This document shows, one piece after another, positions 30,268 to 50,671 of a stretch of DNA of 64,000 nucleotides (positions within the stretch are counted from its first letter, which is position 1; every line of letters begins with the position of its first letter). The position numbers and the translations under genes were made by a program. The stretch is from Jiella endophytica (GTDB taxonomy: Bacteria > Pseudomonadota > Alphaproteobacteria > Rhizobiales > Rhizobiaceae), in NCBI RefSeq assembly GCF_004519335.1, contig NZ_SOZD01000003.1, forward strand, positions 372,001 through 436,000. Reading direction: 5' to 3'. The notes under the pieces were generated by a model. It saw nothing but the letters and a program-made list of their open reading frames with translations, was not told the origin of the DNA and ran no database searches.

Positions 30268-30283
30268 GGCCGGGGAAAACGCC

Positions 30284-31696
30284 ATGTTCGACCTTCTCAT
30301 CCGCAACGGCACGGTGGCGACCGCGTCGGACGTCTTTCCTGCCGATGTCGCCGTCAAGGACGGCGTCATCGTCCAGATCGGCCGCGACCTCGGCCCGGCG
30401 GCCGAGACGATCGACGCGTCCGGCCGCTACGTCCTGCCCGGCGGCATCGACAGCCATGTGCATCTCTCCCAGCCGCAGGCGCCGGGCATCGTCATGGCCG
30501 ACGACTTCGAGAGCGGCACGCGCTCGGCGCTGTTCGGCGGCAACACCACCGTCCTGCCCTTCTGCCTGCAGGAGAAGGGGCGACCCTTGCGCGAGGCGCT
30601 GACGGCCTACCACGCTCTCGCCGACGGCAACTGCTACACCGACGTCTCATTCCACCTGATCGTCTCGGATCCGAGCGAGGCGGTGCTCGGCCAGGAACTG
30701 CCGGCCCTCGTCGAGGACGGTTACACCTCCTTCAAGATCTTCATGACCTATGAGGACCTCCGGCTGAACGATGCCGAGATCCTCGCCACCATGGACTGCG
30801 CCAGGCGCACCGGCGCCCTCGTCATGGTCCATTGCGAGAACGAGGACGCCATCCGCTACCTGATCGGCCGGCACGAGGCCGATGGCGATGTCGCCCCGAA
30901 GGCCCATGCGACGACGCGGCCGATCGCCGTCGAGCGCGAGGCGACCCACCGGGCGGTCTCGCTCGCCGAGGTGGTCGACGTGCCGGTGGTCATCGTCCAT
31001 GTCTCGAACCGGGAAGCCATGGAAGAGATCGAGCGGGCGCGCCGCCGCGGCCGCAAGGTGATCGGCGAGACCTGCCCGCAATATCTGATGCTGACGGCAG
31101 ACGATCTCGACGGCATGGACTGGGAGGGGGCGAAGTTCGTCTGCTCGCCGCCGCCGCGCGACTCGGCCAGCCAGGAGGCCTGCTGGGAGGGGATCGAGCG
31201 GGGCGTCTTCGACCTTTATTCCTCCGACCACTGCCCGTTCCGCTACGACGATCCGCACGGCAAGCTGAACCCGAAGGGCCGCGAGAGCTTCCGGCACATT
31301 CCGAACGGCATTCCCGGCGTCGAGACGCGGCTGCCGATCCTGTTTTCCGAAGGCGTCATGAAGGGCCGGATCGACCTTTGCCGCTTCGTCGCCCTGACCG
31401 CGACCAACCACGCCAAGACCTACGGCCTCTATCCGAAGAAGGGCACGATCGCCATCGGCGCCGACGCCGACATCGCCATCTGGAATCCGCAGGCGACCCG
31501 CACCATCCGCCACGCCGACCTCCACGACGCCTCGGACTATTCGCCCTATGAGGGCCTCGAAATCGCCGGCTGGCCGACGACGGTGGTCCTCGGCGGCGCC
31601 GTGGTCGTCGACAACGGTGTGCTGACAGGGCATGCCCGCGCCGGGCGCTATGTCTCGCGCGGCCGCTCGAGCCTGGCAGGATCGACGCGGCCGTGA
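30284..31696 (+). CDS. Dihydropyrimidinase/hydantoinase-type cyclic amidohydrolase
   Basis: A 470-residue amidohydrolase with a binuclear metal site: HxH in GGIDSHVHL (residues 58 and 60), the carbamylated lysine in TSFKIFMTY (about 152), histidines in VMVHCEN and VIVHVSN, and the aspartate in YSSDHCPF. These match dihydropyrimidinase and D-hydantoinase, which open cyclic ureides and imides. GTIAIGADADIAIW near the end is the usual C-terminal beta-sandwich segment. With the PLP enzyme before it and an importer after it, uptake and opening of a cyclic amide is a reasonable inference. Confidence 0.9.
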   Translation: MFDLLIRNGTVATASDVFPADVAVKDGVIVQIGRDLGPAAETIDASGRYVLPGGIDSHVHLSQPQAPGIVMADDFESGTRSALFGGNTTVLPFCLQEKGRPLREALTAYHALADGNCYTDVSFHLIVSDPSEAVLGQELPALVEDGYTSFKIFMTYEDLRLNDAEILATMDCARRTGALVMVHCENEDAIRYLIGRHEADGDVAPKAHATTRPIAVEREATHRAVSLAEVVDVPVVIVHVSNREAMEEIERARRRGRKVIGETCPQYLMLTADDLDGMDWEGAKFVCSPPPRDSASQEACWEGIERGVFDLYSSDHCPFRYDDPHGKLNPKGRESFRHIPNGIPGVETRLPILFSEGVMKGRIDLCRFVALTATNHAKTYGLYPKKGTIAIGADADIAIWNPQATRTIRHADLHDASDYSPYEGLEIAGWPTTVVLGGAVVVDNGVLTGHARAGRYVSRGRSSLAGSTRP

Positions 31697-37501: not shown

Positions 37502-38436
37502 GCCTGCGCTTCATCCTCGGCAAGCTGCTGCGCGCTTTCCTGACGCTGCTTCTCGCCGTCACATTCGTCTTTATTGTCCTGCGCATGTCGGGCGATCCGG
37601 TGAGCCAGATGCTGCCGGACGACACGCCGGCTTCCGTGGTTGCCGCCTATCGGCAGATGTGGGGGCTCGACCGGCCGCTGCCGGAGCAATATGCGCGCTA
37701 TGTCGCCGGAATCCTGCATGGCGACTTCGGCTTTTCCTTCCGCGACAACCGTCCGGCGCTGGATGTCGTTCTCGAGCGGGTGCCGCTGTCCCTCGAACTC
37801 GGCCTGACGGCCCTCGCTCTGACGATCGTGCTCGGCATCGGCGGCGGCATCCTCGCGGCGCTGAAGCGCGGCACGTCGGTCGACCACGCCACCATGGCCT
37901 TCACCATCATGGGCCACTCGATGCCGAACTTCTTTCTCGGCATCCTTCTGATCCTCGCCTTCGCCATGACCTGGCGGATCCTGCCGAGTTCGGGGACGGG
38001 AAGCTGGCGACACCTGGTCATGCCGGCGGTGACGCTCGGGACCAGCTATGCCGCGACGGTCGCCCGCTTCACCCGCTCCTCGCTCCTCGAAGTCCTGCAC
38101 CAGCCCTTCATGCGCACCGCCCGCGCCAAGGGCGTGCCGTTTCGCCGGCGCATCCTCGGCCATGCCCTGCCGAATGCCGGGATCCCCATCGTCACGGTGG
38201 TCGGCCTGAGGCTCGGTGCGCTGATCGGCGCCGCCGTCGTGGTCGAGCCGGTCTTCGCCTGGCCGGGCGTCGGCCAGCTGCTGGTCAGCGCCGTCGCCTT
38301 CCGGGACCTCGCCATCGTCCAGACGATCGTGCTGCTGATCGCCTTCACCATGGTCGTCGTCAACTTCCTGGTCGACCTCACCTATGGCTGGCTCGATCCG
38401 CGGATCGGCATGGTTTCCGGCGAGGCCGCGGCATGA
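37498..38436 (+). CDS. ABC transporter permease, DppB/OppB type
   Basis: A 312-residue permease with an N-terminal span (ILGKLLRAFLTLLLAVTFVFIVL), a periplasmic loop with the DppB hallmark YGLDRPLP-like WGLDRPLPEQYARY, five further spans and the coupling loop around FMRTARAKGVPFRRRILGHALPNA. It starts within the phosphodiesterase stop (ATGA) and ends within the next permease start. It forms a heterodimeric channel with the DppC-type partner. Confidence 0.94.
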   Translation: MSLRFILGKLLRAFLTLLLAVTFVFIVLRMSGDPVSQMLPDDTPASVVAAYRQMWGLDRPLPEQYARYVAGILHGDFGFSFRDNRPALDVVLERVPLSLELGLTALALTIVLGIGGGILAALKRGTSVDHATMAFTIMGHSMPNFFLGILLILAFAMTWRILPSSGTGSWRHLVMPAVTLGTSYAATVARFTRSSLLEVLHQPFMRTARAKGVPFRRRILGHALPNAGIPIVTVVGLRLGALIGAAVVVEPVFAWPGVGQLLVSAVAFRDLAIVQTIVLLIAFTMVVVNFLVDLTYGWLDPRIGMVSGEAAA

Positions 38437-39326
38437 GTGCGACCCCGGCCGACACCGTTTCTCCCGCCGATGCCGATGCGCAGCGTCGCTTCCGACGCCT
38501 GCCGGTCGTCATCGTCCTCTGCGCGGCCTGGCTTCTCCTCTGCGCCGTTCTCGCCATCGGCGCCGACTGGATCGCGCCCTATGGCTATGCCGAGCAGAGC
38601 CTGCTCCACCGGTTGCAGCCGCCGGCCTTTCTCGGCGGCGATCCGGCCTATCTCCTCGGCACCGACGGGCTCGGCCGGGACGTCCTCTCGCGGCTGATCT
38701 TCGCGATGCGGGCCAGCATCCTGATCGCCTTCTGCGGCACGTTGATCGGTTCGACCATCGGCACCGTGCTCGGCTTCCTGGCCGCGCATTTCCGCGGCTG
38801 GGTCGAAGACGCGATCATGCTGATGGTCGACTTCCAGGCCGCGATGCCGTTCCTGATCATCGCGCTGGCGATCCTCGCCTTCTTCGGCAACTCGTTCGGG
38901 CTGTTCCTCGTCGTCGTCGGCTTTCATGGCTGGGAGGTCTATGCCCGGCTCACCCGCGGCCTCGTGCTGCAGGCGAACGCGAAGGGCTATGCCTTCGCGA
39001 TCCGCACCCTCGGCGTCCATCCGCTACGGATCTATGTCCGCCACGTCCTGCCGAACATTCTGAGTGTCCTCGTCGTGCAGGTGACGCTGAACTTTCCCGA
39101 GATCATCCTGCTCGAGACCTCGCTGAGCTTTCTCGGGCTCGGCGTCCAGCCGCCGCAGACCAGCCTCGGCCTGATGCTCGGCGAGGGCCGCAACTACATC
39201 GCCACGGCCTGGTGGATGGCGATTCCGGCCGGCATCGCGATCTTCCTGACGACGCTTTCGGTCAGCCTCATCGGCGACTGGCTGCGCGACCGGCTCGATC
39301 CGACGCTGCGACCGGCCGAGCAGTAG
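38433..39326 (+). CDS. ABC transporter permease, DppC/OppC type
   Basis: A 297-residue permease. The DppC hallmark LLGTDGLGRDVLSRLIFAMR is at about residue 75, followed by membrane spans and the coupling loop AIRTLGVHPLRIYVRHVLPNI and LSFLGLGVQPPQTSLG. It ends the plus-strand operon that starts at 29047; the converging DUF1989 operon ends 66 bases later. No clear terminator stem was seen in that gap. Confidence 0.94.
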   Translation: MSATPADTVSPADADAQRRFRRLPVVIVLCAAWLLLCAVLAIGADWIAPYGYAEQSLLHRLQPPAFLGGDPAYLLGTDGLGRDVLSRLIFAMRASILIAFCGTLIGSTIGTVLGFLAAHFRGWVEDAIMLMVDFQAAMPFLIIALAILAFFGNSFGLFLVVVGFHGWEVYARLTRGLVLQANAKGYAFAIRTLGVHPLRIYVRHVLPNILSVLVVQVTLNFPEIILLETSLSFLGLGVQPPQTSLGLMLGEGRNYIATAWWMAIPAGIAIFLTTLSVSLIGDWLRDRLDPTLRPAEQ

Positions 39327-39392
39327 TCGCAAATTCGAAAAAACACAGATCGAGGCGTTGACGATCGCGCCTTCCTCCGAGGGCTGCGACCT

Positions 39393-40076
39393 CTATGGCC
39401 GCCAGGTCGGGCGCGCGAGGATCTGCGCAAAACCGTCTTCGAGGATGCGGTAGTGCGCATCGACCGGTTCGTTCGCCGCGCCTCCCTGGATCGGCACGAT
39501 GTCCTGCGGACAGGCTGACAAAGCGACGATGCAGTCCATCTCGGCGCGAAGGGTAATCGCGTCGCCCGGCCGGCAGGGCGTCGGCAGGGTCGCCAGGCTG
39601 TGGCCGTCCGCCTGGACCTTGATGTTCATGAAGACGTTGAAGGAAGCAAGGATCGGCGGCACGTCCGCAAAGCCGAGATCCGCCATCGCCTCGCGCATGT
39701 TGTCGACGCAGTTGCGGTGGTCCTTCTCGACGCCGAGCAGGCGATAGCGCTCGCAGTCGCAGGCGGCCATGATGGTGTCGTGGATGCCCGGCGAGGTGTC
39801 GGCGACGACGGTGAGGATCGGCCGCCGCCGGGTGGTGACGAATGTGTCGCCGACCTGCGGAATGAAGCTCTGGTTCCAGACCCGGCTCGCCTCCATCGAC
39901 ATGTATTCGCGAAGATCGTCGGCAGCGAAGGCCCAGCAGTCGACCACCTGGGTGCCATGGGTGTTGACGATCTCGACCGATTGGCCGCGGCGCAGATGCA
40001 GCGCAGCGCCGTGGCGGGCGGGAATCGTCTCAAGCGGGCCGTTGGCGGTCATCGTGGTCTCCAGGGCGGCTGTCAT
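39393..40076 (-). CDS. DUF1989 protein (urea carboxylase-associated / carboxyguanidine deiminase family), paralogue 4
   Basis: A 227-residue DUF1989 protein, last gene of the ten-gene operon. The conserved cysteines are C106 (ACDCERY), C123 (HRNCVDN) and C189 (ACPQDIVPI), the candidate metal site of the family. Other shared blocks are EIVNTHGTQVVDCWAF and REYMSMEASR. The family includes CgdA and CgdB, the two subunits that deiminate carboxyguanidine in guanidine-using bacteria. No urea or guanidine carboxylase or allophanate hydrolase is in the window, so the substrate here may differ. This copy is most similar in layout to paralogue 1. Confidence 0.86.
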   Translation of the reverse strand: MTAALETTMTANGPLETIPARHGAALHLRRGQSVEIVNTHGTQVVDCWAFAADDLREYMSMEASRVWNQSFIPQVGDTFVTTRRRPILTVVADTSPGIHDTIMAACDCERYRLLGVEKDHRNCVDNMREAMADLGFADVPPILASFNVFMNIKVQADGHSLATLPTPCRPGDAITLRAEMDCIVALSACPQDIVPIQGGAANEPVDAHYRILEDGFAQILARPTWRP

Positions 40077-40101
40077 CGGACAGGCCGGCAGGGATGAAGT
40101 T

Positions 40102-40734
40102 TCAGGGGATCAGCCGGTTGTCGACCCGGACCCGGATGGCGCCCTCGCCGGTGTCGATGCCGAGACCCGAAGGCGTGTTGGTGACGACGACGCACATGTC
40201 CATCACCACCCGGCAGGTGACCGAGCGCCCGGGCGCCGGCGGCGCGGCGGCGGGGACGAGACGGCCGTCCCGCTCGACACCGACATTCAGGAAGAGGTTC
40301 ACCGGATCGGGAAATTTCGGGGCGTTAAGACCGGCATGGCGAACCGCGGCCCTGAGCGCCTCGTGACCGCTGGCAGTGTCGTTTGGCAGCGAGGCGAGAT
40401 CGCCGGGCAGCGAGGCGGGGATGAGAAGGTCGTGCCCGCCGGCCCGGTCGCGGCCGAGCACCATCATCGCCCGGCGCCGGTTGCTGACGAGCCGCATGCC
40501 AAGGCCGAGACGGTAGCTGTTGCTGAAGACGCGGGTGTGGTGGGGCGAGAGGAACTCGGTCATGTCCGCCCGGGAAAACGCATAGAGCTGAGCGGTGCGA
40601 TCGCCGCAGGGATCCTCGACGGTGAGAAGCTGGCCGGTGGCGATCTCGACGACCGCAAAGCCGCCGAACGGCGCCTCGGCCAGGGTTTCGGGCGGCAGCG
40701 GCCCCGCCTCGGGCGTCGTCATCATCAGCGGCAT
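40102..40734 (-). CDS. DUF1989 family protein lacking the conserved cysteines, paralogue 3
   Basis: A 210-residue member recognisable by fold blocks: EFLSPHHTRVFSNSYRLG, RLVSNRRRAMMVL, DPVNLFLNVGV and the C-terminal CRVVMDM. At the three metal-type positions it has Ser (PASLPGD, about 108), no cysteine in PNDTASGHEALRAAV, and TNTPSGL instead of ACPQD. It therefore cannot bind metal as its neighbours presumably do, and may be a structural or substrate-gating subunit paired with an intact paralogue. The reading frame is intact with normal codon use and a one-base overlap with paralogue 2, so it is not a decaying gene. Confidence 0.78.
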   Translation of the reverse strand: MPLMMTTPEAGPLPPETLAEAPFGGFAVVEIATGQLLTVEDPCGDRTAQLYAFSRADMTEFLSPHHTRVFSNSYRLGLGMRLVSNRRRAMMVLGRDRAGGHDLLIPASLPGDLASLPNDTASGHEALRAAVRHAGLNAPKFPDPVNLFLNVGVERDGRLVPAAAPPAPGRSVTCRVVMDMCVVVTNTPSGLGIDTGEGAIRVRVDNRLIP

Positions 40735-41393
40735 CAGGCTCCCTTTCCCTCAAGATCATCCGAGACGACGATCCTGATGTCGCCGACCTCGAGGCCGTTG
40801 CCGGGGATAATGTCCTGCGGACAGGGCGAGACCGCCACGATCACGTCGATCAGGGCTTTCAGGACGATATGGTCGCCGGGACGGCTGGTCGGATCGGTGA
40901 CGCTCATCCGGCCCTCGACCGTGACCGGCCCATATTGGAAGAAGTTGTAGGGCTCGGGCACGGCGAGCCGGTCAATGCCGTGGGCCTCGAGCGCGCCATG
41001 CATGTTATCGAGACAGTTGCGATGGCCAGGCACGCCGAAATCGACGGCATAGCGCGTCGGATCGCAGGCTGGGACATTGGAATCGTGCTGGCCGACGGTG
41101 TCGGCAACGACCGTGAACATCGGCTGGCCGCGATTGCTCATCAGATGATCGCCGACGGCGAAGAACAGCGACAGGTTTTGCCGCCGCGTGTGGCCCGGCG
41201 ACAGGACTTCCGCGTGGTCGTCCCGGTTCAGCGCAACGAAGTCGCAGGCCTGGCGCCCCATGACGTCGACGATGGTGACGTGTTGCCCGGCCTTCGCCTC
41301 GAAGCCGAAACCGAAGCCACCGGGGACGACATGATCGAGCGCGACGGCCCGGAACTCCGGCAGCGGTGCCGCGGTAGCAGCCGGCGCGCTCAT
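40734..41393 (-). CDS. DUF1989 family protein, paralogue 2
   Basis: A 219-residue DUF1989 protein with the three cysteines C110 (PACDPTRY), C127 (HRNCLDN) and C191 (PCPQDIIPGNG). It differs from paralogues 1 and 4 in its N-terminal half (AGQHVTIVDVMGRQACDFVAL, LSPGHTRRQNLSLF), the layout of the second subunit type in paired DUF1989 systems. Its start overlaps the stop of paralogue 1 by four bases and its stop overlaps paralogue 3 by one, so translation of all is coupled. Probable cytosolic metal-dependent enzyme subunit. Confidence 0.86.
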   Translation of the reverse strand: MSAPAATAAPLPEFRAVALDHVVPGGFGFGFEAKAGQHVTIVDVMGRQACDFVALNRDDHAEVLSPGHTRRQNLSLFFAVGDHLMSNRGQPMFTVVADTVGQHDSNVPACDPTRYAVDFGVPGHRNCLDNMHGALEAHGIDRLAVPEPYNFFQYGPVTVEGRMSVTDPTSRPGDHIVLKALIDVIVAVSPCPQDIIPGNGLEVGDIRIVVSDDLEGKGA

Positions 41394-41989
41394 GGCTCCA
41401 CCACGAAATGCGCCTCGGTGGGCAGATGGCCGACGCCGTTGATCGGCAGGATGTCCTGCGGGCAGGCGCTGAAGGCGATCACGAGGTCCATTTCCGCCTT
41501 CAGCCTGACGAAGCTGCCCGGCGTCGACACCGGCGCCTCGAAGGAGACCGAGCGATCCGGGTGAACCGGGATGTTCATGAACAGATTGAGCGGGCTCGGG
41601 GTTTCCGGCGCTTCGAGCCCGATCTCGCGCATCGCGGCGTGGAGGTTGTCCTCGCAATTGTCGTGATGGCCCTCGACGCCGAGAAAGGCGTAGCGATGCC
41701 GGTCGCAGGCGGCGATGATGGTATCGTGGATGCCGCCGGACGTATCCTCGACCAAGGTGAGGATCGGCCGCCGCCGGTTGGTGCGCAGGATGTCGCCGAC
41801 GACCGGGATGATCTTCAGCATATGCGCCCGGCTGTGCTCCATTGACATGAATTCGGTGAGGTCCTCGGCGTTGAAGGCCCAGGTATCGATCACCTGCTCG
41901 CCATGGGTGTTAATCACCCTGACGGTTTCGCCTTTGGCGACGCGATGGGCCTTGCCCCGCCGGGCGGGGATGGTCAAAGGCTGCGACAT
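41390..41989 (-). CDS. DUF1989 family protein, paralogue 1
   Basis: A 199-residue DUF1989 protein, the most compact of the four. Conserved cysteines are C95 (AACDRHRY), C112 (HHDNCEDN) and C176 (SACPQDILPING). EFMSMEHSRAHM and NRRRPILTLVEDT are the other family blocks. It follows the first-listed ureohydrolase by 27 bases. In known guanidine pathways DUF1989 proteins act as a heterodimeric carboxyguanidine deiminase; here the neighbour enzymes are ureohydrolases, so a role on a guanidino-derived product is the working inference. Confidence 0.87.
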   Translation of the reverse strand: MSQPLTIPARRGKAHRVAKGETVRVINTHGEQVIDTWAFNAEDLTEFMSMEHSRAHMLKIIPVVGDILRTNRRRPILTLVEDTSGGIHDTIIAACDRHRYAFLGVEGHHDNCEDNLHAAMREIGLEAPETPSPLNLFMNIPVHPDRSVSFEAPVSTPGSFVRLKAEMDLVIAFSACPQDILPINGVGHLPTEAHFVVEP

Positions 41990-42016
41990 GCTGCTTCCTT
42001 CCTGAAGATGGCGCCG

Positions 42017-42964
42017 TCAGGCGGCGATTGCCGCTTTCCAGCGCGGCTGGGCACAGATCTCGCCGAGAAAGCCGAGGACGATGGTGGCGGCGAGGTAGGC
42101 CGTCGCGCCGGTGCCGACGTCGAGGGCGGGATTGACCTCGACGAGGTCGAAGCCGACGACTTCGCAGCGCTCGGCGACCGCCTTCAGCGCGTCGCGAAGC
42201 TCGCCATAGAGAAAGCCGTCCGGCTCGCCCGAGACGCAACCCGGCACCAGCGAGATGTCAAGCGCATCGATGTCGATCGAGACATAGACCGGCGCCCCAT
42301 CCGGCACGAGCCCGGCGATCCCCTCGGCGCCGAGCATCCGCGCCTCCGGCATGGCGACGACACGGTTGCCGCCGGCTTCGATCGCCGCATGGTCGCGGCC
42401 GTCGCTGCGCAGCGAGCGGATCCCCACCTGGGTCAGGCTGAGCGCGGTGTCCATCGCCGCCATGTGGCGGAAGGCATGGCCATTGGTGTAGCGCAGGCCG
42501 TTCGCTTCCGGCGCATAGTCCATATGGGCGTCGAAATGCAGGATATGCACCTTGCGATCGAAGGCGCGGAAGATCGGATAGGCGATCGAATGATCGCCGC
42601 CGAGCCCGACCGGCATCGCTCCGCGGTCCAGGATGCCGCGCACCGTGGCGGTGATGTTGTCGAAGGTCCTTTCGACATTGGTCGGGGCGATGTCGACGTC
42701 GCCGACATCGGCGATCAGGCCCCGTTCGCGCTCCTCGACGAGGAACTGCCGCCGCGTCGCCGGATCGTAGAGCCCGCCGCAAAAGCGCAAGGAATGCTCA
42801 CGGATCGCCCGCGGCCCCATGCGGCTGCCCGGATAGAATGGCGAGCCCTCGTCGAAGGGAACGCCATAGACGCCGATCTTCGCATCGAGTTTCGACAGGT
42901 CTTCGCAGATCGGTGCCCTGAGGAAGGACGGAATCCCGACATAGGGGCGATCGATTCGGGCCAT
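42017..42964 (-). CDS. Ureohydrolase (agmatinase/arginase family) A
   Basis: A 315-residue binuclear-metal ureohydrolase. Ligands are visible at H125 (GGDHSIAYP), D145, H147 and D149 (FDAHMDYAP) and D231 and D233 (SIDIDALD), with the glutamate in VEVNP near 276. Such enzymes release urea (or guanidine-derived products) from guanidino compounds such as agmatine, guanidinobutyrate or guanidine. The start ATG 42964 has AAAGGAG seven bases before it; an upstream TTG seven codons earlier would bury that site. It is the sixth gene of the operon, between the ATPase gene and the DUF1989 quartet. Confidence 0.91.
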   Translation of the reverse strand: MARIDRPYVGIPSFLRAPICEDLSKLDAKIGVYGVPFDEGSPFYPGSRMGPRAIREHSLRFCGGLYDPATRRQFLVEERERGLIADVGDVDIAPTNVERTFDNITATVRGILDRGAMPVGLGGDHSIAYPIFRAFDRKVHILHFDAHMDYAPEANGLRYTNGHAFRHMAAMDTALSLTQVGIRSLRSDGRDHAAIEAGGNRVVAMPEARMLGAEGIAGLVPDGAPVYVSIDIDALDISLVPGCVSGEPDGFLYGELRDALKAVAERCEVVGFDLVEVNPALDVGTGATAYLAATIVLGFLGEICAQPRWKAAIAA

Positions 42965-42988
42965 TGCGGCATCTCCTTTGATCAAGGT

Positions 42989-43774
42989 TCAGACGGCCTC
43001 TGCGGCGGCGGGCCGGATCAGCGAGAGAAAGGCCTGCAGCCGGGGATCGCCCGGCTGCTTCAACACCCGTCCGGGCGGGCCCTCCTCGGCGATGCGACCG
43101 CCATGCATGAAGACGACGCGGTCGGCGACATTCGCCGCAAAGCCGATCTCGTGGGTGACGACGATCATCGTCATGCCGCCGGCGGCGAGATCCTTCAAAA
43201 GCGCCAGCACGCCGCCGATGAGTTCGGGATCGAGGGCCGAGGTCGGCTCGTCGAACAGCATGATCTCCGGATCCATGGCGAGCGCCCGGGCGATGGCGAC
43301 CCGCTGCTTCTGGCCGCCGGAAAGCGCATGGGGCAGCCGGTCGCCACGATCGGCAAGGTCGAGATCGGCCAGAAGCTTCTGCGCCCGCGCCGTCGCCTCG
43401 TCGCGGCTGCGCTTCAATACGACGACCTGCGGCCTGACGACGTTTTCCAGCGCCGTCATGTGCGGCCACAGATTGAGTGCCTGAAACACCATGCCGATCT
43501 TCGGACGCATGGCATCGACCGCCCGCCGCGGCTGGCGGTGGACGGTGCCGCCGACCACCTCGCGGCCGAAGGGTTTGCCGGCGACGCTGATGAATCCGGC
43601 TTCCGGCTGTTCGATGAGCGTGATGCAGCGCAGAAAGGTGCTCTTGCCGCAGCCGCTCGGGCCGATCATCGCGACCACCTCGCCCCTGGCGACGTCAAGA
43701 TAGACGTCGTCGAGCACCGCGCTGCCCTTGAAGCGCTTGGTGAGGCCCGAGACGGACAAGGCAGTGGCACTCAT
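42989..43774 (-). CDS. Amino-acid ABC transporter ATP-binding protein (GlnQ/HisP type)
   Basis: A 261-residue ATPase: Walker [14 protein letters not shown]-loop [14 protein letters not shown], signature [15 protein letters not shown], Walker [17 protein letters not shown], switch VTHEIGFA. About 20 extra residues between Walker A and the Q-loop ([19 protein letters not shown]) are unusual for the family and may be an insertion on the domain surface. It overlaps the permease gene by four bases. Partner subunits are encoded just upstream in the operon. Confidence 0.94.
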
Positions 43775-44502
43775 CGCCGACTCCTTTTCGGCATCGCCTC
43801 CAGCGACAGGAAACTCGCCGCCAGGGCCGAGCCGACGAGATGCTCGCTGCGGGCGCGCCCGAAACGGCGTTCGAGCAGCGAGGCGGCATGGGCGACGATG
43901 GCGGTAATCGCCCAGTAGATCAGCGTGACCGCGGCGAAGGCCTCGAAAGGCGCGAAGGTGTTCCCCTGGACGACGAGACTCTGATAGGTCAGCTCGGCGA
44001 CGGTGATCGAACTCAAGACCGCCGATTCCTTGATCATCGTCAGGGTAATGTTGGTCGAGGGCGGCACCAGCGTCGGCACGATCTGCGGAAAGATCACGTG
44101 GCGCATCGCCTGCAGCGCCGACATGCCGATCACCCGGGCGGACTCGTACTGCCCCCTCGGCAGCGCCTCGATCGCGGCGCGCACGATCTCGGCATAATAG
44201 GCGCTGGCATAGAGCGACAGCGCGATGGTGCCGGTGATCACCGCCGGGATCCGGATGCCGGAAAACGGCAATCCGTAATAGACGACGAAGAGCAGGATGA
44301 TGAACGGGATCGCCCTCAGCGTCAGAAGATAGATCTCGATCGCCGCCTTGATCGCGCGGCTGGGGATCTGCGAGAGAAGCGCGAGGACGATGCCGATCAC
44401 ATAGCCGATGATCGTCGCCGCGAGGCAGATGCGGATCGTCAGCCAGGTGCCCTTGACGAAGAGCGGCCAGTACTGGGCGAGGATCGAAAGGTCGAAGGTC
44501 AT
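43771..44502 (-). CDS. Amino-acid ABC transporter permease (HisM-like)
   Basis: A 243-residue permease with an N-terminal span and the family signature: [29 protein letters not shown], then [27 protein letters not shown]. It overlaps the second permease gene and the ATPase gene (four bases each). Two different permeases indicate a heterodimeric channel as in HisQM. Its C-terminus is extended by roughly 25 residues beyond the last span. Confidence 0.92.
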
Positions 44503-45158
44503 CGCCTTGCTCCGGCCGTGCGCCGTTCGATCACCTTGCCGGCGGCGATCACCGGCAGGTTGAGGACGAGGAAGCAGAGCGCCGCACCGACCAGGGTCTC
44601 GAAGGGGCGGAAGCTGGAGCCGGCGATCTGCTGGGACGTCCGCAACACCTCGACCACGGTGATCACCGACAACAAGGCAGTTCCCTTGACGATCACCGTG
44701 ACCTCGTTGACCAGCATCGGCAGGATGATCCGGAAGAGCTGCGGCAGGACGACCTTTCGCCAGATCAGCCAGCGCGGCAGCGCAAGCGACGTCGCCGCCT
44801 CGATCTGGCCGGGATCGATGCCGGTCAGGCCGCCGCGCATCATCTCGGTGATGAAGATCGTCGAGTTCAGCGAGATCGCCGCGACGCCAGCGCTTTCCGG
44901 GCCGAGATCGAGGCCGAAGATCGGCAGGACATAGAATGCGATGAAGATCTGGATCAGCAGCGGCGTGCCGCGGATGAAGGAGATCACCACGGCGACGACC
45001 GCGTTGAGCGCCGCGATCTTCATCGCCCTGAGGATCGTCAGCAGCGTGCCGCCGAGAATGGCGAGAACCGCGATGATGGCGGCGAGCCGAGCATTGATCA
45101 GCGCCGCCTCGCCGAGGCTCGGCAGGATCGAGACCAGATAGCCGAACTGAAAACCCAT
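44499..45158 (-). CDS. Amino-acid ABC transporter permease (HisQ-like)
   Basis: A 219-residue permease. It has the loop [30 protein letters not shown] and the coupling segment [30 protein letters not shown]. Four or five hydrophobic spans surround these. It follows the binding-protein gene by 31 bases and overlaps the other permease gene. The pair, with the ATPase and the Tat-like binding protein, makes a complete basic or polar amino-acid type importer. Confidence 0.92.
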
Positions 45159-45189
45159 TGCAGCCCTTTCCCGATCCGGCCTCGCGGCG

Positions 45190-46044
45190 TCAGACGGCGT
45201 CCGGCGGCAGATAGCCGGTGTCGGGGATCTCCATCTTGAAGCCGAACCACTTCTCCTGAAGCTCGTAGAGCCGGCCGTCGTCGCGCATCTTGCGGATGAC
45301 GCCGCTGATGAAGTCGCGCAGGTCGGTGTCTTCCGGCCGGGTGCACCAGGCGAGATAGGTCCACTTGACCCCGGCGGTGATCGGACAGGCGAGCTCGAAC
45401 GTGTCCGGCTTCTCCTTCACCAGCACGGCCAGCGACGGCAACGACTGGATCACCGCGTCGATCTCGCCGTTGGCCAGCGCGACATAGGACTCGGTGAAGG
45501 CGGTATAGAGCTTCAGATCGGCGAAACCTTCGCCGTCCGCCTTCAGCTTGTCGTCGAGAGCGCGGGCGATCGGCTCGGTGGAGGAGGCGAGCTGGGTGCC
45601 GACAACCTTGCCCTTGAGATCGTCCTCGGACTTGATCGCATCGCCCTTGCGCATCATCGCATAGGGCTGGCCGTTGGCGATCGGCATCGTATAGGCGTAG
45701 CGCTTGGCGCGCTCCTCGTTGATCGCCACCGTGGTCGCGACGAAATCGAACTTGCCGGCAAGGACGCCCGGCAGGATGCCCTGCCAGGGCAGGTCGAGCT
45801 GGTTCAGCTTGACGCCGAGTTCCTCCACCACCACCGCGAGGATGTCGGAGCCATAGCCGACGATCTTGCCGTCCTTGACGAATTCGAAGGGCGGGAACGC
45901 CGCTTCCGTCCCGACGGTGACGACGCCCTTCTTGCGGATCGCCTCGAGCGTCGTCTCGGCGAAGGCCGCCCGCCCGGGCAGGAGAGCGGCGAGCGCCGTT
46001 CCCACTGCGAGACGGCCGAATTGTCTGCGATCGAGTGTCAGCAT
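45190..46044 (-). CDS. Amino-acid ABC transporter substrate-binding protein with Tat-like signal
   Basis: A 284-residue family 3 binding protein. The N-terminus DRRQFGRLAVGTALAALLPG has the twin-arginine pattern and a weakly hydrophobic core, suggesting Tat export of a folded protein. Ligand-site blocks are TEAAFPPFEFVKDGKIVGYG, PWQGILPGVLAGKFDFV and KVVGTQLASSTEPIARAL. Its operon neighbours are two ureohydrolases and DUF1989 proteins, so a guanidino compound (arginine-like, agmatine, guanidinobutyrate or guanidino acid) is the likely ligand; that is inference from context. Confidence 0.91.
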   Translation of the reverse strand: MLTLDRRQFGRLAVGTALAALLPGRAAFAETTLEAIRKKGVVTVGTEAAFPPFEFVKDGKIVGYGSDILAVVVEELGVKLNQLDLPWQGILPGVLAGKFDFVATTVAINEERAKRYAYTMPIANGQPYAMMRKGDAIKSEDDLKGKVVGTQLASSTEPIARALDDKLKADGEGFADLKLYTAFTESYVALANGEIDAVIQSLPSLAVLVKEKPDTFELACPITAGVKWTYLAWCTRPEDTDLRDFISGVIRKMRDDGRLYELQEKWFGFKMEIPDTGYLPPDAV

Positions 46045-46098
46045 GCGAAATCTCCGGCAGGTTGGGAAGGAACGGATGCTTGTCCGGCCCCGAAGGGC

Positions 46099-47067
46099 TC
46101 AGACGGATGGCGACTTTTCGAAGTAGCCGGCGCGCACCGCCGCGCCGATGAGATTGACGACGAGGCGTCCGGCGGTGATGGCGGTGATGCCGTTGACGTC
46201 GGCCGACGGGGTGATCTCGACGATGTCCATGCCGACGACACGCCCCTTGCCGACGAGACCGTGGATGAGGCGGCGCACCTGGTGGAAGGTCAGCCCGCCC
46301 GGCGCCGGCCCTTCGACCGCCGGCATCACCGTGGGATCGAGGCCGTCGGCATCGATGGTGATGTAGTAGCGACCGCCATCCGGGATCTGCGCCAGCACCG
46401 CGTCGATGCCGCCGTCATGCACCTCGAAGGCCGGAATGATACGGGCGCCATAGGCCATGGCGGCCTCGTATTCCTCCGGCCGGCCGCTGCCCTGGGCGCG
46501 GATGCCGATCTGGAAGATCTCGCCGATGTGCTCCATCTCGGAAGCCCGGCGGATTGGGCTCGAAAGACCCTCGGTGACGCCGTTGACGTCGTTGCGCCAG
46601 TCGATATGGGCATCGACCTGGATGAGGGTGATCGGTCCCTCCCCGTCCAGCGCCTTGAAGATCGGGATGGGAATGCCGTGGTCGCCACCGATGGTGATCG
46701 GCATGGCGCCGGCCGCCAGCACCTTGCGGACCACCTCTTCGGCCCGCTGCAGATGGCCGAGATGATCGGCGATGTCGAAGGTGACGTTGCCGACGTCCAC
46801 CGCCTTGATCGGGCGGTTGTCGTAGATCGGGCCGCCGACGTCGAAGTCGTGGCGCTCGAGATGGCGCGACACCCGGTCAGTCACCGCGCGCACCGCATCT
46901 GGCGCCAGGGTCTGGTCATTGATCACCGCATGCGGCTCATACGGATTGCCATACGGCATGCCGATAAAGGCGATATCGGCGTCCAGCGTGTCCAGATCCG
47001 TGTGCAGATCGGAATAGAGAAACGTCTGATAGCCCACACGGGGGGCGACGGTCAGCGGCACGGTCAT
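46099..47067 (-). CDS. Ureohydrolase (agmatinase/guanidino hydrolase family) B
   Basis: A 322-residue ureohydrolase, first gene of the ten-gene operon. Metal ligands are at H130 (GGDHGIPIP), D152, H154 and D156 (VDAHIDWRND), and D239 and D241 (TIDADGLDP). The substrate-side sequence differs from enzyme A: Ile-Pro-Ile after GGDH instead of a Ser, and DWRND after DAHI. Similar features are seen in guanidine or guanidino-acid hydrolases rather than classical arginase, though this comparison is from memory. ATG 47067 is used; a TTG nine codons upstream has a nearer GAGG and is possible. Confidence 0.9.
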   Translation of the reverse strand: MTVPLTVAPRVGYQTFLYSDLHTDLDTLDADIAFIGMPYGNPYEPHAVINDQTLAPDAVRAVTDRVSRHLERHDFDVGGPIYDNRPIKAVDVGNVTFDIADHLGHLQRAEEVVRKVLAAGAMPITIGGDHGIPIPIFKALDGEGPITLIQVDAHIDWRNDVNGVTEGLSSPIRRASEMEHIGEIFQIGIRAQGSGRPEEYEAAMAYGARIIPAFEVHDGGIDAVLAQIPDGGRYYITIDADGLDPTVMPAVEGPAPGGLTFHQVRRLIHGLVGKGRVVGMDIVEITPSADVNGITAITAGRLVVNLIGAAVRAGYFEKSPSV

Positions 47068-47156
47068 GCGGGTGCGATCCTGTGGCCGGTTCAAAGCCCG
47101 GCCTCACTTGCGGGTTTCGATATCGCAAGCTAGCGAGCCATGCTGCGCCGCATCAA

Positions 47157-47171
47157 TTGCAAACTTTGCAA
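47157..47171. promoter_or_regulatory. Perfect palindrome TTGCAAA-C-TTTGCAA, LysR-type T-N11-A box
   Basis: The palindrome has seven-base arms and a single central base, and contains TGCAAACTTTGCA, an exact T-N11-A motif, the recognition pattern of LysR regulators. It lies in the 126-base gap between ureohydrolase B and the LysR gene, 22 bases before the latter's ATG, so it suits an autoregulatory and activating site. Its first hexamer TTGCAA could also be a -35 box to TATGTT at 47181 (18-base spacer). Confidence 0.6.
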
Positions 47172-47193
47172 GCATGCATGTATGTTGTGCAAC

Positions 47194-48117
47194 ATGAACG
47201 CTCCCACCTCGAGACCGATCGCCAGTCTCACGGAAAACGACCTCAGGCTGATGCGAATTTTCCGCGTCGTCGCCGAATGCGGCGGCCTGACAGCCGCCGA
47301 GGCGCGGCTGCATCTGGAGCGTTCGACGATCAGCCGCAACATCAAGGCTCTGGAGGAGCGGATCGGCGATACGCTGTGCCTGCGCGGGCCGTCGGGCTTC
47401 GAGCTGACGCAGATGGGCGAGACGGTGCTGCGGGCGGCGATCTCGGCCTGCGACACGCTTGACGCGGTGCGCGACGACCTGAACATGGCCCGCAACGTCA
47501 TGACCGGCGACCTGGTCATCGGCATTGCCGACAACATCCTGACCAATCCGAAGTGCCGGCTGGTCGAGGCGCTCGCCGATTTCCAGCGGACGGCGCCTGC
47601 CGTGCGGCCGACGATGATCGTACGGCCCCCGGCCGAACTGGTGCTGGAGCTGCAGCACCGCCACGTCCACCTCTGCATCAACGGCGCCGCGCCTTTCGAC
47701 GCGGACTTCGTCCGGCACGACCTCTTCGATGAGGAGTTCTGCCTCTATGCCAGCCGCAACCATGCCGACGGCCCGGTCAGGCTCGCCGATCTCGACCGCC
47801 TCGGCATCGGCCTCGTCATGCGCGACGGCAACGCCCAGACGGAGATGCTCTGGCCGCGCCTCGGGCTGCAGCACAAGGCCAAGGCCTCCGGACTGGAAGC
47901 CGTCGGCATGCTGATCGCCGGCGGCCGCTATGTCGGCTACCTGCCGACGCATTTTGCCGAGGTCATGCAGGCGCGGTGGAAACTGGTCGAGGTCGAGGAC
48001 GCGACCGACATGCGCTACGCGACAACGTTCTATCTCAATTACGAGCGCAGCCGTCCCCTCAGCGCGCCGGCCCGGTGCTTTCGCGATCTCCTGCTGAGGG
48101 CCCATCGGGCGGACTGA
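47194..48117 (+). CDS. LysR-family transcriptional regulator of the ureohydrolase/DUF1989 operon
   Basis: A 307-residue LTTR with the helix-turn-helix LMRIFRVVAECGGLTAAEARLHLERSTISRNIKALEERIG and a C-terminal effector domain. It diverges from the ten-gene minus-strand operon, the classic arrangement for its activator. ATG 47194 gives a normal N-terminus; the frame continues to 47140 but those 18 residues are cysteine-rich and not LTTR-like. No ribosome-binding sequence precedes 47194, and the possible -10 box at 47181 is only about eight bases away, so the message may be leaderless. Confidence 0.9.
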   Translation: MNAPTSRPIASLTENDLRLMRIFRVVAECGGLTAAEARLHLERSTISRNIKALEERIGDTLCLRGPSGFELTQMGETVLRAAISACDTLDAVRDDLNMARNVMTGDLVIGIADNILTNPKCRLVEALADFQRTAPAVRPTMIVRPPAELVLELQHRHVHLCINGAAPFDADFVRHDLFDEEFCLYASRNHADGPVRLADLDRLGIGLVMRDGNAQTEMLWPRLGLQHKAKASGLEAVGMLIAGGRYVGYLPTHFAEVMQARWKLVEVEDATDMRYATTFYLNYERSRPLSAPARCFRDLLLRAHRAD

Positions 48118-48154
48118 AGCGCCGGAATGGCGATGCCAGGCCGGCGTGGTCCCA

Positions 48155-49618
48155 TCAGGGTGCCACGATCGCCTCGGCTTCGATCTCGACCGCGTAGTCG
48201 CCAACCAGCGCGCCGGCCGCCAGCAGGGTGTTGGCGGGCCGGATCTCGCCGAAGACGCGCCCATGGGCTCGCGAGACCGCTTCCCAGTCCTCGATGCGGG
48301 AAAGATAGACCCGGGTTCGCACCACATCCTCGAGGCTGGCGCCGAGGGCCTTCAGGCTCGCGGCGATCTTGTCGAGCGCATAGGTCGCCTGCGCCCCGGC
48401 ATCGCTCGGCGCGACGATGCGGTCGGTGCCGTGGGTGGCGGTGGTGCCCGAAACGAAGATGCGGTCGCCCTCGCGGATGGCGCGGCTGTAGCCGGCGATC
48501 GGCTCCCAGATGCTCTTCGAAGAGACCCGGCTGCGCCCGGGGCGGCCCGGCACGGGCTCGGCACCGTAAGGCAGCGGGATGTCGCCGAGATGGTGGCTGA
48601 GATCGCCGGACGCCGTGAGAAAGGGCGGCCTGCGGTATTCGTCGCCGCAATCGCCGGGGATCGGCGTCGATGTCCGAAGTGCGTCGGCGAGCAGCGCCCT
48701 GTCCGCTTCATCGAGGGTGAAATCGAAGAGCTTCAGATTGTCCGCCCGGTGCTCGCTTTCGCCGAGCCGCGCCCCGATGATGACGCCGGCGACGGCGGCG
48801 TGATCGAGCACCCAGCGGGTCGCCACATTGGCGATGGAGACGCCGTGGCGGCGCCCGATTTTCGCGGCGGCGCCAAGGATCGCCTGCAGCACGTCCCAGC
48901 CGCCGGCGGCATCGATGAAGCGCTTGTACTTCATCGAGCTCCAGTCGCCGACGGCGCCTGGCTCGGGCTTGCCCAGCCAGCGCTCGGAGAGGAAGCCGCC
49001 GCACAAGGTGCCATAGGCGAGAAGCCGCACGCCGGTCCGGGCGCAGACTTCCGAGAGGGCTTCGGCGGCGCGGCGGTCGACCAGCGAGAACGAGACCTGG
49101 TTCGAGACGACCTTGACGCCGTCGGCGACTGCGACGGCGAGATGCGCCGCGTCGAAATTGGTAAGGCCGATCGCCCCGATCCGGCCCTCCCGCCGCAGCG
49201 CCTCGAATTCGTGCAGGGCATCGAGCCAGCCGGGATGCTCGAAGCTCCACCAGTGGAACTGCAGGAGGTCGACCTTTTCGACGCCCAGGCGGTCGAGCCG
49301 CTCCTCAACGCCCGCCCGCACCGCCTGCGGCGTCATCGGCCCGGGCGCCGGGCACCATTTGGTGAAGGCGAGCGGCCGCGCCGCCCCGGGGTGCCTCGCC
49401 AGAAGACGGCCGGTGACGAGCTCTGCGCTGCCATAGTGATCGGCCATGTCGAAGGTATCGAAGCCGGCATCGGCATAGGCGCCGAGGGCGTCCGCCGCAG
49501 CGTCGAGGTCGAGGACGCGGCCGTCCTTTTCCATGTCGGCGATCTGCCACAGGCCGGTGAGAACGCGGCTGATGGCGAGCTCCGGCGTCAGCTGGAATCG
49601 TTCGGGGCGCTCGGCCAT
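48155..49618 (-). CDS. Aldo/keto reductase fused to a C-terminal RidA/YjgF domain
   Basis: A 487-residue fusion. Residues 1 to about 325 are an aldo/keto reductase with the full tetrad: D57 and Y62 (FDMADHYG), K87 (FTKW) and H122 (LQFHWW). A linker follows, then a complete RidA domain from about 368 (WEPIAGYSRAIREGDRIFVSG to VEIEAEAIV). In RidA the arginine that binds the 2-imino acid carboxylate lies in PARS; here the aligned residue is N463 (RPANT), so imine deamination as in E. coli RidA is doubtful. No stop or frameshift separates the halves. It is the last gene of the minus-strand Liv operon, 63 bases after livM. Confidence 0.88.
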   Translation of the reverse strand: MAERPERFQLTPELAISRVLTGLWQIADMEKDGRVLDLDAAADALGAYADAGFDTFDMADHYGSAELVTGRLLARHPGAARPLAFTKWCPAPGPMTPQAVRAGVEERLDRLGVEKVDLLQFHWWSFEHPGWLDALHEFEALRREGRIGAIGLTNFDAAHLAVAVADGVKVVSNQVSFSLVDRRAAEALSEVCARTGVRLLAYGTLCGGFLSERWLGKPEPGAVGDWSSMKYKRFIDAAGGWDVLQAILGAAAKIGRRHGVSIANVATRWVLDHAAVAGVIIGARLGESEHRADNLKLFDFTLDEADRALLADALRTSTPIPGDCGDEYRRPPFLTASGDLSHHLGDIPLPYGAEPVPGRPGRSRVSSKSIWEPIAGYSRAIREGDRIFVSGTTATHGTDRIVAPSDAGAQATYALDKIAASLKALGASLEDVVRTRVYLSRIEDWEAVSRAHGRVFGEIRPANTLLAAGALVGDYAVEIEAEAIVAP

Positions 49619-49681
49619 CTGGCGGTCTCCTTGTATCGGGTGAAGCGTATCGGGTGAAGCCGGGCTCCGCCCGGCGCGGTG

Positions 49682-50671
49682 TCATCGGTCCGGTCGTCTG
49701 AGGCGCCGCCAGCGCGTATCGCCCCGGCCGTCGGCGAAACGCGAAATCGTCCGCCGCTCGCCGATCAGGCCACGCGGGCGAAGGAGCAGGATGACACAGA
49801 GGGCGACGCCGATCAGCACGATCTGCAGGGAGGCGCCGCGGGCCTGCTGGTCGGCCGGCACGAGCGCGCCGATGGCCGAGGCCGAGACCGCCCAGAGCGC
49901 CCAGACGACCACCGCCCCGACCACCGCGCCGAGATTGTTGCCGGAGCCGCCGACGATCAGCATCGTCCAGACCTGAAACGTCAGGAGCGGCAGGTAGTTG
50001 TCGGGCGCAATGAAGCCGATGAAATGGGCCTGGACGGCGCCGCCGAGAGCCATCAGCGCGCCGCCGAGGGCGAAGGCCTTGAGCCGGAAGTGTTTCGCAT
50101 CCTTGCCAAGCGAGACCGCCGCCGTCTCGTCCTCGCGGATCGCCCGCAGCACCCGGCCGAAGGGCGAACTGCTCAGCCGCTCGACGGCCAGGAACATCGC
50201 AAGAAGCACAAGCGCGACGAGGCCGAGATTGAACAGGCCGAAGCGCAGCGGATCGGCTGCGAAAGCCGAGAACGGCCGCGGGATGAAGCTCATCCCGAAC
50301 GGGCCGCCGGTCAGCCTCTCGAGATTGAGTGCCGCGAGCTGCGCCGTGACCGCGAATCCGAAGGTGGTGATGGCCAGATAGTCCGAACGAAGGCGGATGG
50401 TCAGCCAGCCGAGCGCATAGGACAGCACCGCCCCGGCGACCATCGCCGCGGCCCACCCGATCGGGATCGGCAGGGAAAAACCGCCGACGCGGCCGGCGAG
50501 GGCCGGTGTCGTCAGCAGGCCGGAGACATAGGCGCCGATGGCGACGAAGCCGGCAACGCCGACATTGAAGAGGCCCGCCTGGCCCCACTGGACGTTGAGA
50601 CCGAGACAGATGATGGCATAGGATAAGGCGATGGTCAGGAAGAACGCGCCATATCCGAGAAGATCGATCAT
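49682..50671 (-). CDS. livM: Branched-chain amino-acid-type ABC permease (LivM)
   Basis: A 329-residue permease with about nine hydrophobic spans. Landmarks are ICLGLNVQWGQAGLFNVGVAGF at the start and the late LIVGGSGNNLGAVVGA, both typical of LivM. It starts in the livH stop (ATGA). Liv-type importers carry branched-chain amino acids but many relatives carry urea, aromatic acids or amides. The binding protein for this set is encoded on the opposite strand at 55962-57230. Confidence 0.93.
   Translation of the reverse strand: MIDLLGYGAFFLTIALSYAIICLGLNVQWGQAGLFNVGVAGFVAIGAYVSGLLTTPALAGRVGGFSLPIPIGWAAAMVAGAVLSYALGWLTIRLRSDYLAITTFGFAVTAQLAALNLERLTGGPFGMSFIPRPFSAFAADPLRFGLFNLGLVALVLLAMFLAVERLSSSPFGRVLRAIREDETAAVSLGKDAKHFRLKAFALGGALMALGGAVQAHFIGFIAPDNYLPLLTFQVWTMLIVGGSGNNLGAVVGAVVVWALWAVSASAIGALVPADQQARGASLQIVLIGVALCVILLLRPRGLIGERRTISRFADGRGDTRWRRLRRPDR

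Follow-up and report, generated by a model that had tools for sequence, protein, structure and literature searches.

In a 64,000-nucleotide stretch of the Jiella endophytica genome (contig NZ_SOZD01000003.1, positions 372,001 to 436,000; hereafter the window, numbered from its first letter), we identified a ten-gene operon that brings together two arginase-family hydrolases (ureohydrolases), an amino-acid-type ATP-binding cassette (ABC) importer and four DUF1989 proteins. Judged from its sequence, this operon appears to be a conserved combination of known families that fits none of the known routes. We propose, with about equal chances of being right or wrong, that it serves the LysR-controlled, importer-fed scavenging of nitrogen from a guanidino or amidino carboxylic acid that has no alpha-amino group or has it in blocked form; an N-amidino or N-formimidoyl amino acid and an omega-guanidino acid would be examples. 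Guanidine compounds are a nitrogen source for many microbes and few of the enzymes involved have been assigned (PMC12186494; PMC11018352; papers given by PMC number are cited from excerpts, to which our statements about them are limited). The operon ties two loosely annotated families ("agmatinase" and "urea carboxylase-associated protein") to one importer with an easily screened binding protein. Its recurrent pair of ureohydrolases also makes it possible to test what paired arginases do when their metal ligands are intact, a question that has been called open (PMC11271267).

The ten genes lie on the minus strand and run from 47067 to 39393, as an initial annotation, made from the letters of the window, had stated:

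46099..47067, minus strand: UHB (ureohydrolase B), arginase family, 322 amino acids; Pfam Arginase 195 bits, six metal ligands, the usual His replaced by Leu, own clade
45190..46044, minus strand: SBP, binding protein of the polar amino-acid type with Ser in the Asp column; SBP_bac_3 108 bits and residue columns
44499..45158, minus strand: amino-acid ABC permease A; open reading frame (ORF) with 55-74% identity to orthologs in syntenic loci, annotated so in L016, L017 and L023
43771..44502, minus strand: amino-acid ABC permease B; ORF, synteny, 4-base overlap
42989..43774, minus strand: ABC ATPase; ABC_tran 125 bits, synteny
42017..42964, minus strand: UHA (ureohydrolase A), arginase family, 315 amino acids; Pfam Arginase 218 bits, six ligands, Asn at the usual His
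41390..41989, minus strand: D1, DUF1989 with metal-site pattern HCHCCD; Pfam 176 bits, alignment columns, tree
40734..41393, minus strand: D2, DUF1989 with HCHCCD, intact half of the D2-D3 pair; Pfam 161 bits, own clade (Shimodaira-Hasegawa-like approximate likelihood ratio test, SH-aLRT, 100)
40102..40734, minus strand: D3, degenerate DUF1989 whose zinc cysteines are gone; Pfam 100 bits, site lost in 8 of 8 orthologs, AlphaFold model compared with 3ORU
39393..40076, minus strand: D4, DUF1989 with HCHCCD; Pfam 162 bits, clade D4 (SH-aLRT 96)

The Pfam cut-offs are 22 bits for Arginase and 27 bits for DUF1989, which all four of D1 to D4 exceed; both permeases were named from annotated orthologs and not from Pfam. 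Read from UHB to D4, the junction distances are 54, 31, -4, -4, 24, 27, -4, -1 and 25 bases, so that stops and starts overlap at only four of the nine junctions and not at most of them, as had been annotated. Since the other five gaps are also short (24-54 bases), the ten genes are likely to form one transcript; past D4, the next ORF lies on the opposite strand and ends at 39326. Four of the six DUF1989 matches of the whole genome and two of its six arginase-family matches fall inside the operon, and this concentration, together with the recurrence of the gene order in other genomes, argues that the arrangement is not due to chance.

In order to collect relatives of UHA, genome contigs were scanned with a four-sequence UHA alignment, and the best 80 of the 198 loci found were analysed. 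UHA and UHB shared a locus in 32 of these 80, and 28 loci held UHB, the importer binding protein and UHA together. A DUF1989 gene was also present in 19 of the 28, directly 3' of UHA and on the same strand, as read from tblastn positions (an ORF-based count with a limit of 200 bases gave 7, ORF starts being over-extended). Because this slot is filled by two distinct DUF1989 clades in the tree, the coupling of UHA with DUF1989 seems to have been retained or re-made. A LysR match was found in 27 of the 28 syntenic loci and was divergent in 26. The survey of gene order that the initial annotation had proposed recovered the complete ten-gene order in Aurantimonas endophytica (L084), Antarcticirhabdus aurantiaca (L085) and a genome of the same taxonomic order (L221), shorter forms being commoner. 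Loci of Bosea (L086, L087) and Methylobacterium terricola (L099) hold D1 and D4 but not D2-D3. The best reading is therefore that D2-D3 was inserted between the two, and the operon resembles a core (UHB, importer, UHA and D1) to which a D2-D3 cassette has been joined. DUF1989 was not found in the Bradyrhizobium loci L092-L094 and L105. Annotated plasmid relatives occur in Chelatococcus, Salipiger and Neorhizobium, among others, the last of these without DUF1989.

Within the genus of the window, operon markers (UHA at E <1e-90 or D3 at E <1e-20) were detected in one of ten genomes, namely the source genome, and this patchy presence suggests horizontal spread or loss. At the class level, UHA at 55% identity or more was found in 6 of 385 genomes and a D3 ortholog in 1 of 385, the next best match reaching 74 bits, and at the order level D2 was found at E <1e-60 in 4 of 297 genomes. 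Among 50,697 phage records, 3 gave relatives of D2, with an identity of only 30-32%.

UHA and UHB are about 29% identical to each other. Both carry all six metal ligands (HDHDDD), as do all 166 aligned arginase-family rows, among which some genes appear twice because two collections supplied them. At a position where GbuA, GpuA and GdmH have His, every one of the 86 UHA rows has Asn, and the 37 UHB rows have Leu (31) or Tyr (6); among the 43 other rows, His is found in 35, Asn in 4, Gln in 3 and Arg in 1. In a FastTree phylogeny of 93 of the 166 rows, thinned by shared 5-mers and with the metformin hydrolase subunits outside the row set, UHA and UHB fell outside the GdmH, GbuA and GpuA groups and apart from the genome's own SpeB-type gene. 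Low scores were obtained against the family models: both proteins reached 138.5 bits for agmatinase SpeB (TIGR01230, cut-off 174.3) and 133.5 and 143.8 bits for PRK02190 (cut-off 302), and UHB and UHA reached 90 and 123 bits, respectively, for formimidoylglutamase HutG (TIGR01227, cut-off 229). The solved structure nearest by sequence to either protein is the Deinococcus agmatinase 1wog, which like UHA has Asn at the His position; it differs in its long branch in the tree and in that agmatine lacks the carboxylate suggested by the importer residues described below.

UHA and UHB could instead form one heteromeric ureohydrolase for an N-alkylated guanidine or biguanide, as in the metformin and dimethylguanidine hydrolases (MetCaCb, MefH, DmgH), where paired arginase-family genes also occur and one of them has Asn for the conserved His (PMC11271267, PMC11399263). 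The two genes share a locus in the 32 loci mentioned above, and this non-coordinating His, replaced by Asn in the alpha subunit of metformin hydrolase, matters for activity (PMC11271267); we take it to be the Asn column of UHA without an alignment of that protein. In the metformin-type heteromer, however, one subunit is stripped of most metal ligands, whereas the six ligands are complete in both UHA and UHB. Furthermore, each of the two is found without the other, no nickel chaperone gene (HypA/HypB) is among the ten, the operon adds an importer and DUF1989 genes, and the importer residues suggest a carboxylate ligand, so we regard this heteromer as improbable.

Side observations on UHA concern L138, L142, L146 and L154, where a methyltransferase-cluster gene precedes UHA, and L138, L142 and L154, where a TauD-type dioxygenase-cluster gene follows it on the opposite strand (one representative per cluster of neighbour genes was scanned). 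In those lineages the neighbours could be a sign of methylated guanidino compounds.

The operon might also belong to the known guanidine route, with guanidine hydrolase or agmatinase as the role of the ureohydrolases, CgdA/CgdB as that of the DUF1989 proteins and a carboxylase encoded elsewhere, a picture in which the initial annotation had seen the end of its own proposal. The Pfam families are the same, the general chemistry is shared, and the guanidine carboxylase pathway (guanidine carboxylase, CgdA/CgdB and allophanate hydrolase; L182, L183) resembles the operon in that DUF1989 genes, of which one is intact and the other degenerate, come after an ABC importer. Trees and a search of the whole genome nevertheless gave a different result. 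In this assembly, which is 97% complete, no urea carboxylase passed the cut-off (best match 545 against 1304 bits), in line with the lack of a carboxylase that had been annotated for the operon. A split urea carboxylase was considered and rejected, its pieces being PxpC-like, biotin carboxylase and PxpA-like; the matches to the carboxyltransferase part lie inside a 5-oxoprolinase cluster of the PxpA/PxpC type. The accompanying lack of an allophanate hydrolase does not extend to the genome, since one is encoded on another contig (756 against 511 bits), although it is clustered with a biuret amidohydrolase (410 against 370 bits). UHA and UHB stay below the agmatinase cut-off and lack both the clade and the conserved His of GdmH, and the genome has another gene that does group with GdmH (support 100) and that follows a gene for a TIGR03427 binding protein (572 bits against a cut-off of 334). 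The operon also has a different importer family, different DUF1989 clades and metal pattern, and ureohydrolases, and its DUF1989 proteins do not group with UAAP1 and UAAP2 (see below). Taken together, the known guanidine route is largely refuted and in our view very improbable. The GdmH operon, which is nickel-dependent, shares with the window operon an ABC importer and an arginase-family hydrolase (PMC12186494).

As further observations on the rest of the genome, the GdmH-like locus (L175:8828-12772, contig C21) is likely to serve guanidine use. The allophanate hydrolase locus (L226:7120-14012, contig C23) has two biuret-hydrolase-like genes, one of them above its cut-off, and is likely a biuret-use operon. 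Other contigs carry further arginase-family genes (GpuA-like, GbuA/GpuA-side and SpeB-type), and a urease alpha subunit is encoded as well.

The initial annotation had treated the four DUF1989 proteins as one set, and here it needs correction: to judge by their alignment, the copies are not equivalent, as D1, D2 and D4 have a full metal site and D3, which is paired with D2, does not. The HCHCCD pattern of the first three is that of the trimethylamine N-oxide (TMAO) demethylase Tdm and of 3ORU; in the demethylase the zinc cysteines are C263, C279 and C343, and H276 and D346 are proposed iron ligands (PMC12560246). UAAP2 (8 rows) keeps the three Cys, with Met/Leu and Val/Ile/Leu replacing the His and Asp seen in D1, D2 and D4. 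D2 adjoins D3 in all eight loci with orthologs (the window, L084, L085, L021, L121, L221, L222 and L223). In every one D2 retains HCHCCD, while in D3 all three Cys are absent from six loci and a single one remains in two (L021, L121); the intervening His is gone in all eight. In L021, L222 and L223 the D2-D3 cassette comes with an extra DUF1989 gene and its own amino-acid-type importer. We infer that D2 and the degenerate D3 may form a heteromer.

There are parallels elsewhere: CdgAB includes an inactive cognate (PMC11271267), and Tdm has, next to its HCHCCD DUF1989 domain, a degenerate DUF1989-like domain (PMC12560246). D2 and D3 are, however, separate proteins without a GcvT domain; D2, with 219 amino acids, reached 140 bits against the Tdm model NF053776 (cut-off 1100, GcvT domain needed). 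A kinship of D3 with the N-terminal degenerate domain of Tdm was rejected, because its profile matched the D1-slot, D2 and Tdm DUF1989 profiles more strongly; its nearest profiles were those of the D1 slot and D2, ahead of UAAP1 and the Tdm N-terminal domain. An AlphaFold model of D3 of modest confidence (predicted local distance difference test, pLDDT, 68) matched the DUF1989 structures 3ORU (E 1.4e-10) and 3DI4. On another contig the genome encodes a TMAO demethylase of its own, which contains a DUF1989 domain (L202 / L003, G000:C4:39102-41330; 1255 bits against a cut-off of 1100), just upstream of which we noted by eye a flavin monooxygenase-like ORF.

UAAP1 and UAAP2, which we take to be CgdA and CgdB, were represented by eight pairs, two of them named so in their records and six with a UAAP2 above TIGR03424 and a neighbour called UAAP1 by position. 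D1 to D4 stayed far below the cut-offs of TIGR03424 (51-126 against 284.7 bits) and TIGR03425 (53-76 against 205.95 bits). In the DUF1989 tree (quick search, 103 rows), UAAP1, UAAP2 and ten other rows, eight of each UAAP protein, made up one side (SH-aLRT 99), and D1-D4 were placed on the opposite side. Approximately unbiased (AU) tests on 65 of the 103 rows, a set without L182 (the longest row for UAAP1), three near-copies and most of the rows that had no label, strongly rejected forced groupings of D1, D4 and UAAP2 (p 5e-36) and of D2, D3, UAAP1 and UAAP2 (p 0.0012); the rejection was weak for D3 with UAAP1 (p 0.022) and for D2 with UAAP2 (p 0.044).

Three side observations touch DUF1989 genes. 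A BisC/TorA-like molybdopterin S/N-oxide reductase gene, below its family cut-off, lies near D2-D3 in Palleronia (L021, 3157-5460), as does a molybdopterin oxidoreductase gene in a gammaproteobacterium (L121, 4446-5564), so that a link of D2-D3 to N-oxide or N-hydroxy substrates is possible. On contig C11 of the genome (L171:5193-7191), a lone UAAP-side DUF1989 gene and an amino-acid importer of its own are divergently oriented, and the importer's binding protein has Thr instead of Asp.

In binding proteins for polar amino acids, an Asp binds the alpha-ammonium group and an Arg the carboxylate. The Arg column was Arg in 49 of 49 SBP rows, two genes being counted twice among them. By comparison, the Asp column, which is Asp in all five PDB chains shown, was Ser in 37 rows, Pro in 4, Thr in 3, Gly in 2, Asn in 1 and Asp in 2, these last being the protein of the Palleronia D2-D3 module and that of a second importer of L084. 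The SBP of the window retains Arg and has Ser in place of Asp. Given those residue roles, one would expect the importer to bind a carboxylate in which no alpha-ammonium group is free.

The neighbour genes of UHA, UHB and DUF1989 in other loci point to N-substituted amino acids (amidino, formimidoyl or carbamoyl) as the compound class, and any choice among the three is a guess. Relatives of UHB lie beside genes annotated as aspartase and asparaginase in Aminobacter, the asparaginase being below its NCBIfam cut-offs, and beside HutF (621 against a cut-off of 413) and ArgE in Azospirillum. UHA, UHB and a DUF1989 gene nearest D1 occur together with a histidine ammonia-lyase (631 against 539) and an additional ureohydrolase in L109, and L166 combines UHA with a D4-side DUF1989 gene and a histidine ammonia-lyase (614 against 539). 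On Klebsiella and Caballeronia plasmids, DUF1989 genes with 53-57% identity to D1 follow an importer and an M20 hydrolase of the hydantoinase/carbamoylase family (369 and 366 against 204).

These plasmid loci bear on another explanation, an operon of the ureide type in which a ureido acid resembling allantoate or ureidoglycolate would be the substrate, the ureohydrolases would be carbamoyl hydrolases and DUF1989 would be a lyase acting on a hemiaminal, as can be argued for the TMAO demethylase. The occurrence of D1 relatives beside allantoate-amidohydrolase-like M20 enzymes, and beside a cytosine permease, an amidase and a weak PuuE-like deacetylase, is consistent with it, as is the fact that the best score of D2 is to the Tdm model. 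The cupin of the plasmid operons, tried as a ureidoglycine aminohydrolase, was rejected since it matches the regulator PuuR, below cut-off, and none of the ten genes of the operon is an allantoin enzyme; we consider a ureide operon quite unlikely.

Returning to the scavenging of a guanidino or amidino acid, the importer would take up the compound, and UHA and UHB would hydrolyse a C-N bond at its guanidine or amidine carbon to give an amino acid and urea (or formamide), the urea then being usable by the urease of the same genome. D1 and D4 might act metal-dependently on the same compound or on what is formed from it; the simplest reaction would be a deimination (C=NH to C=O), as carried out by carboxyguanidine deiminase. 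D2 with D3 would be a later addition, a heteromeric DUF1989 enzyme widening the range of compounds. Of this picture, the gene content, its conservation, the metal-site patterns, the phylogeny and the changed importer residues are observations, and the class of substrate, both reaction steps and the D2-D3 heteromer are what we propose. A more specific and tentative version, in our opinion unlikely to hold as a whole, would see here a new catabolic system for N-amidino or N-formimidoyl amino acids, with guanidinosuccinate-like compounds as our leading guess, composed of DUF1989 guanidino-acid deiminases, His-less ureohydrolases and an active/inactive D2-D3 heteromer that evolved separately and is distinct from CgdA/B and the Tdm double domain. 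The initial annotation, which had suggested an importer-fed route for a guanidino- or ureido-like compound distinct from the guanidine carboxylase route, receives support in that suggestion and, taken as a whole, partial support: its outline holds, its view of the four DUF1989 proteins as one kind does not.

Several observations weigh against the proposed pathway. The loss of the His in both UHA and UHB could mean that amidine hydrolysis is altered or lost, and no carbamoylase is among the operon genes to finish a deiminase product. DUF1989 is missing from the locus in 9 of the 28 UHB-importer-UHA loci, UHB is lacking from 48 of the 80 UHA loci (some of them short contigs), and four plasmid loci have UHB but no UHA; with such varied gene company, one fixed substrate for the two families is unlikely. 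The D2-D3 module is found without an adjacent ureohydrolase in L021, L222 and L223, the last having two weaker ureohydrolase relatives about 6 kb away, and its substrate may be different, because the Palleronia binding protein retains Asp.

Among the matches listed in literature searches on DUF1989, ureohydrolases, carboxyguanidine deiminase and guanidino acids, which covered open-licence papers, mostly as titles and the starts of abstracts, a description of the operon was not found.

The regulation of the operon was approached through the region upstream of UHB, where two further features lie:

47140..48117, plus strand: LysR regulator, divergent from UHB; HTH_1 and LysR_substrate Pfam matches, synteny
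47157..47171, no strand assigned: candidate LysR operator, a 15-base perfect palindrome, TTGCAAACTTTGCAA; TTGC-N7-GCAA pattern upstream of UHB

Of 33 regions taken from upstream of UHB, 28 contained the TTGC-N7-GCAA pattern with at most one mismatch (9 of them exactly), compared with a mean of 1.9 and a maximum of 8 in shuffled sequences; the pattern was chosen from the tested sequences themselves, the shuffles keep base composition only, and several loci are closely related. Since the palindrome would otherwise fall within the coding sequence of the longest LysR ORF, an in-frame ATG at 47194 is the likelier LysR start. A search for a guanidine riboswitch with Rfam over 38000-49700 (E up to 1) gave two matches, both far below the gathering score.

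Elsewhere in the window, an ORF on the minus strand adjoining the LysR gene (48155-49618) appears by eye to be a fusion of an aldo/keto reductase with a RidA domain. On the plus strand, positions 29047-31696 hold two genes that look by eye like a class-V aminotransferase and, after it, a hydantoinase/dihydropyrimidinase; the latter gives a weak urease-alpha match (24 bits) as well.

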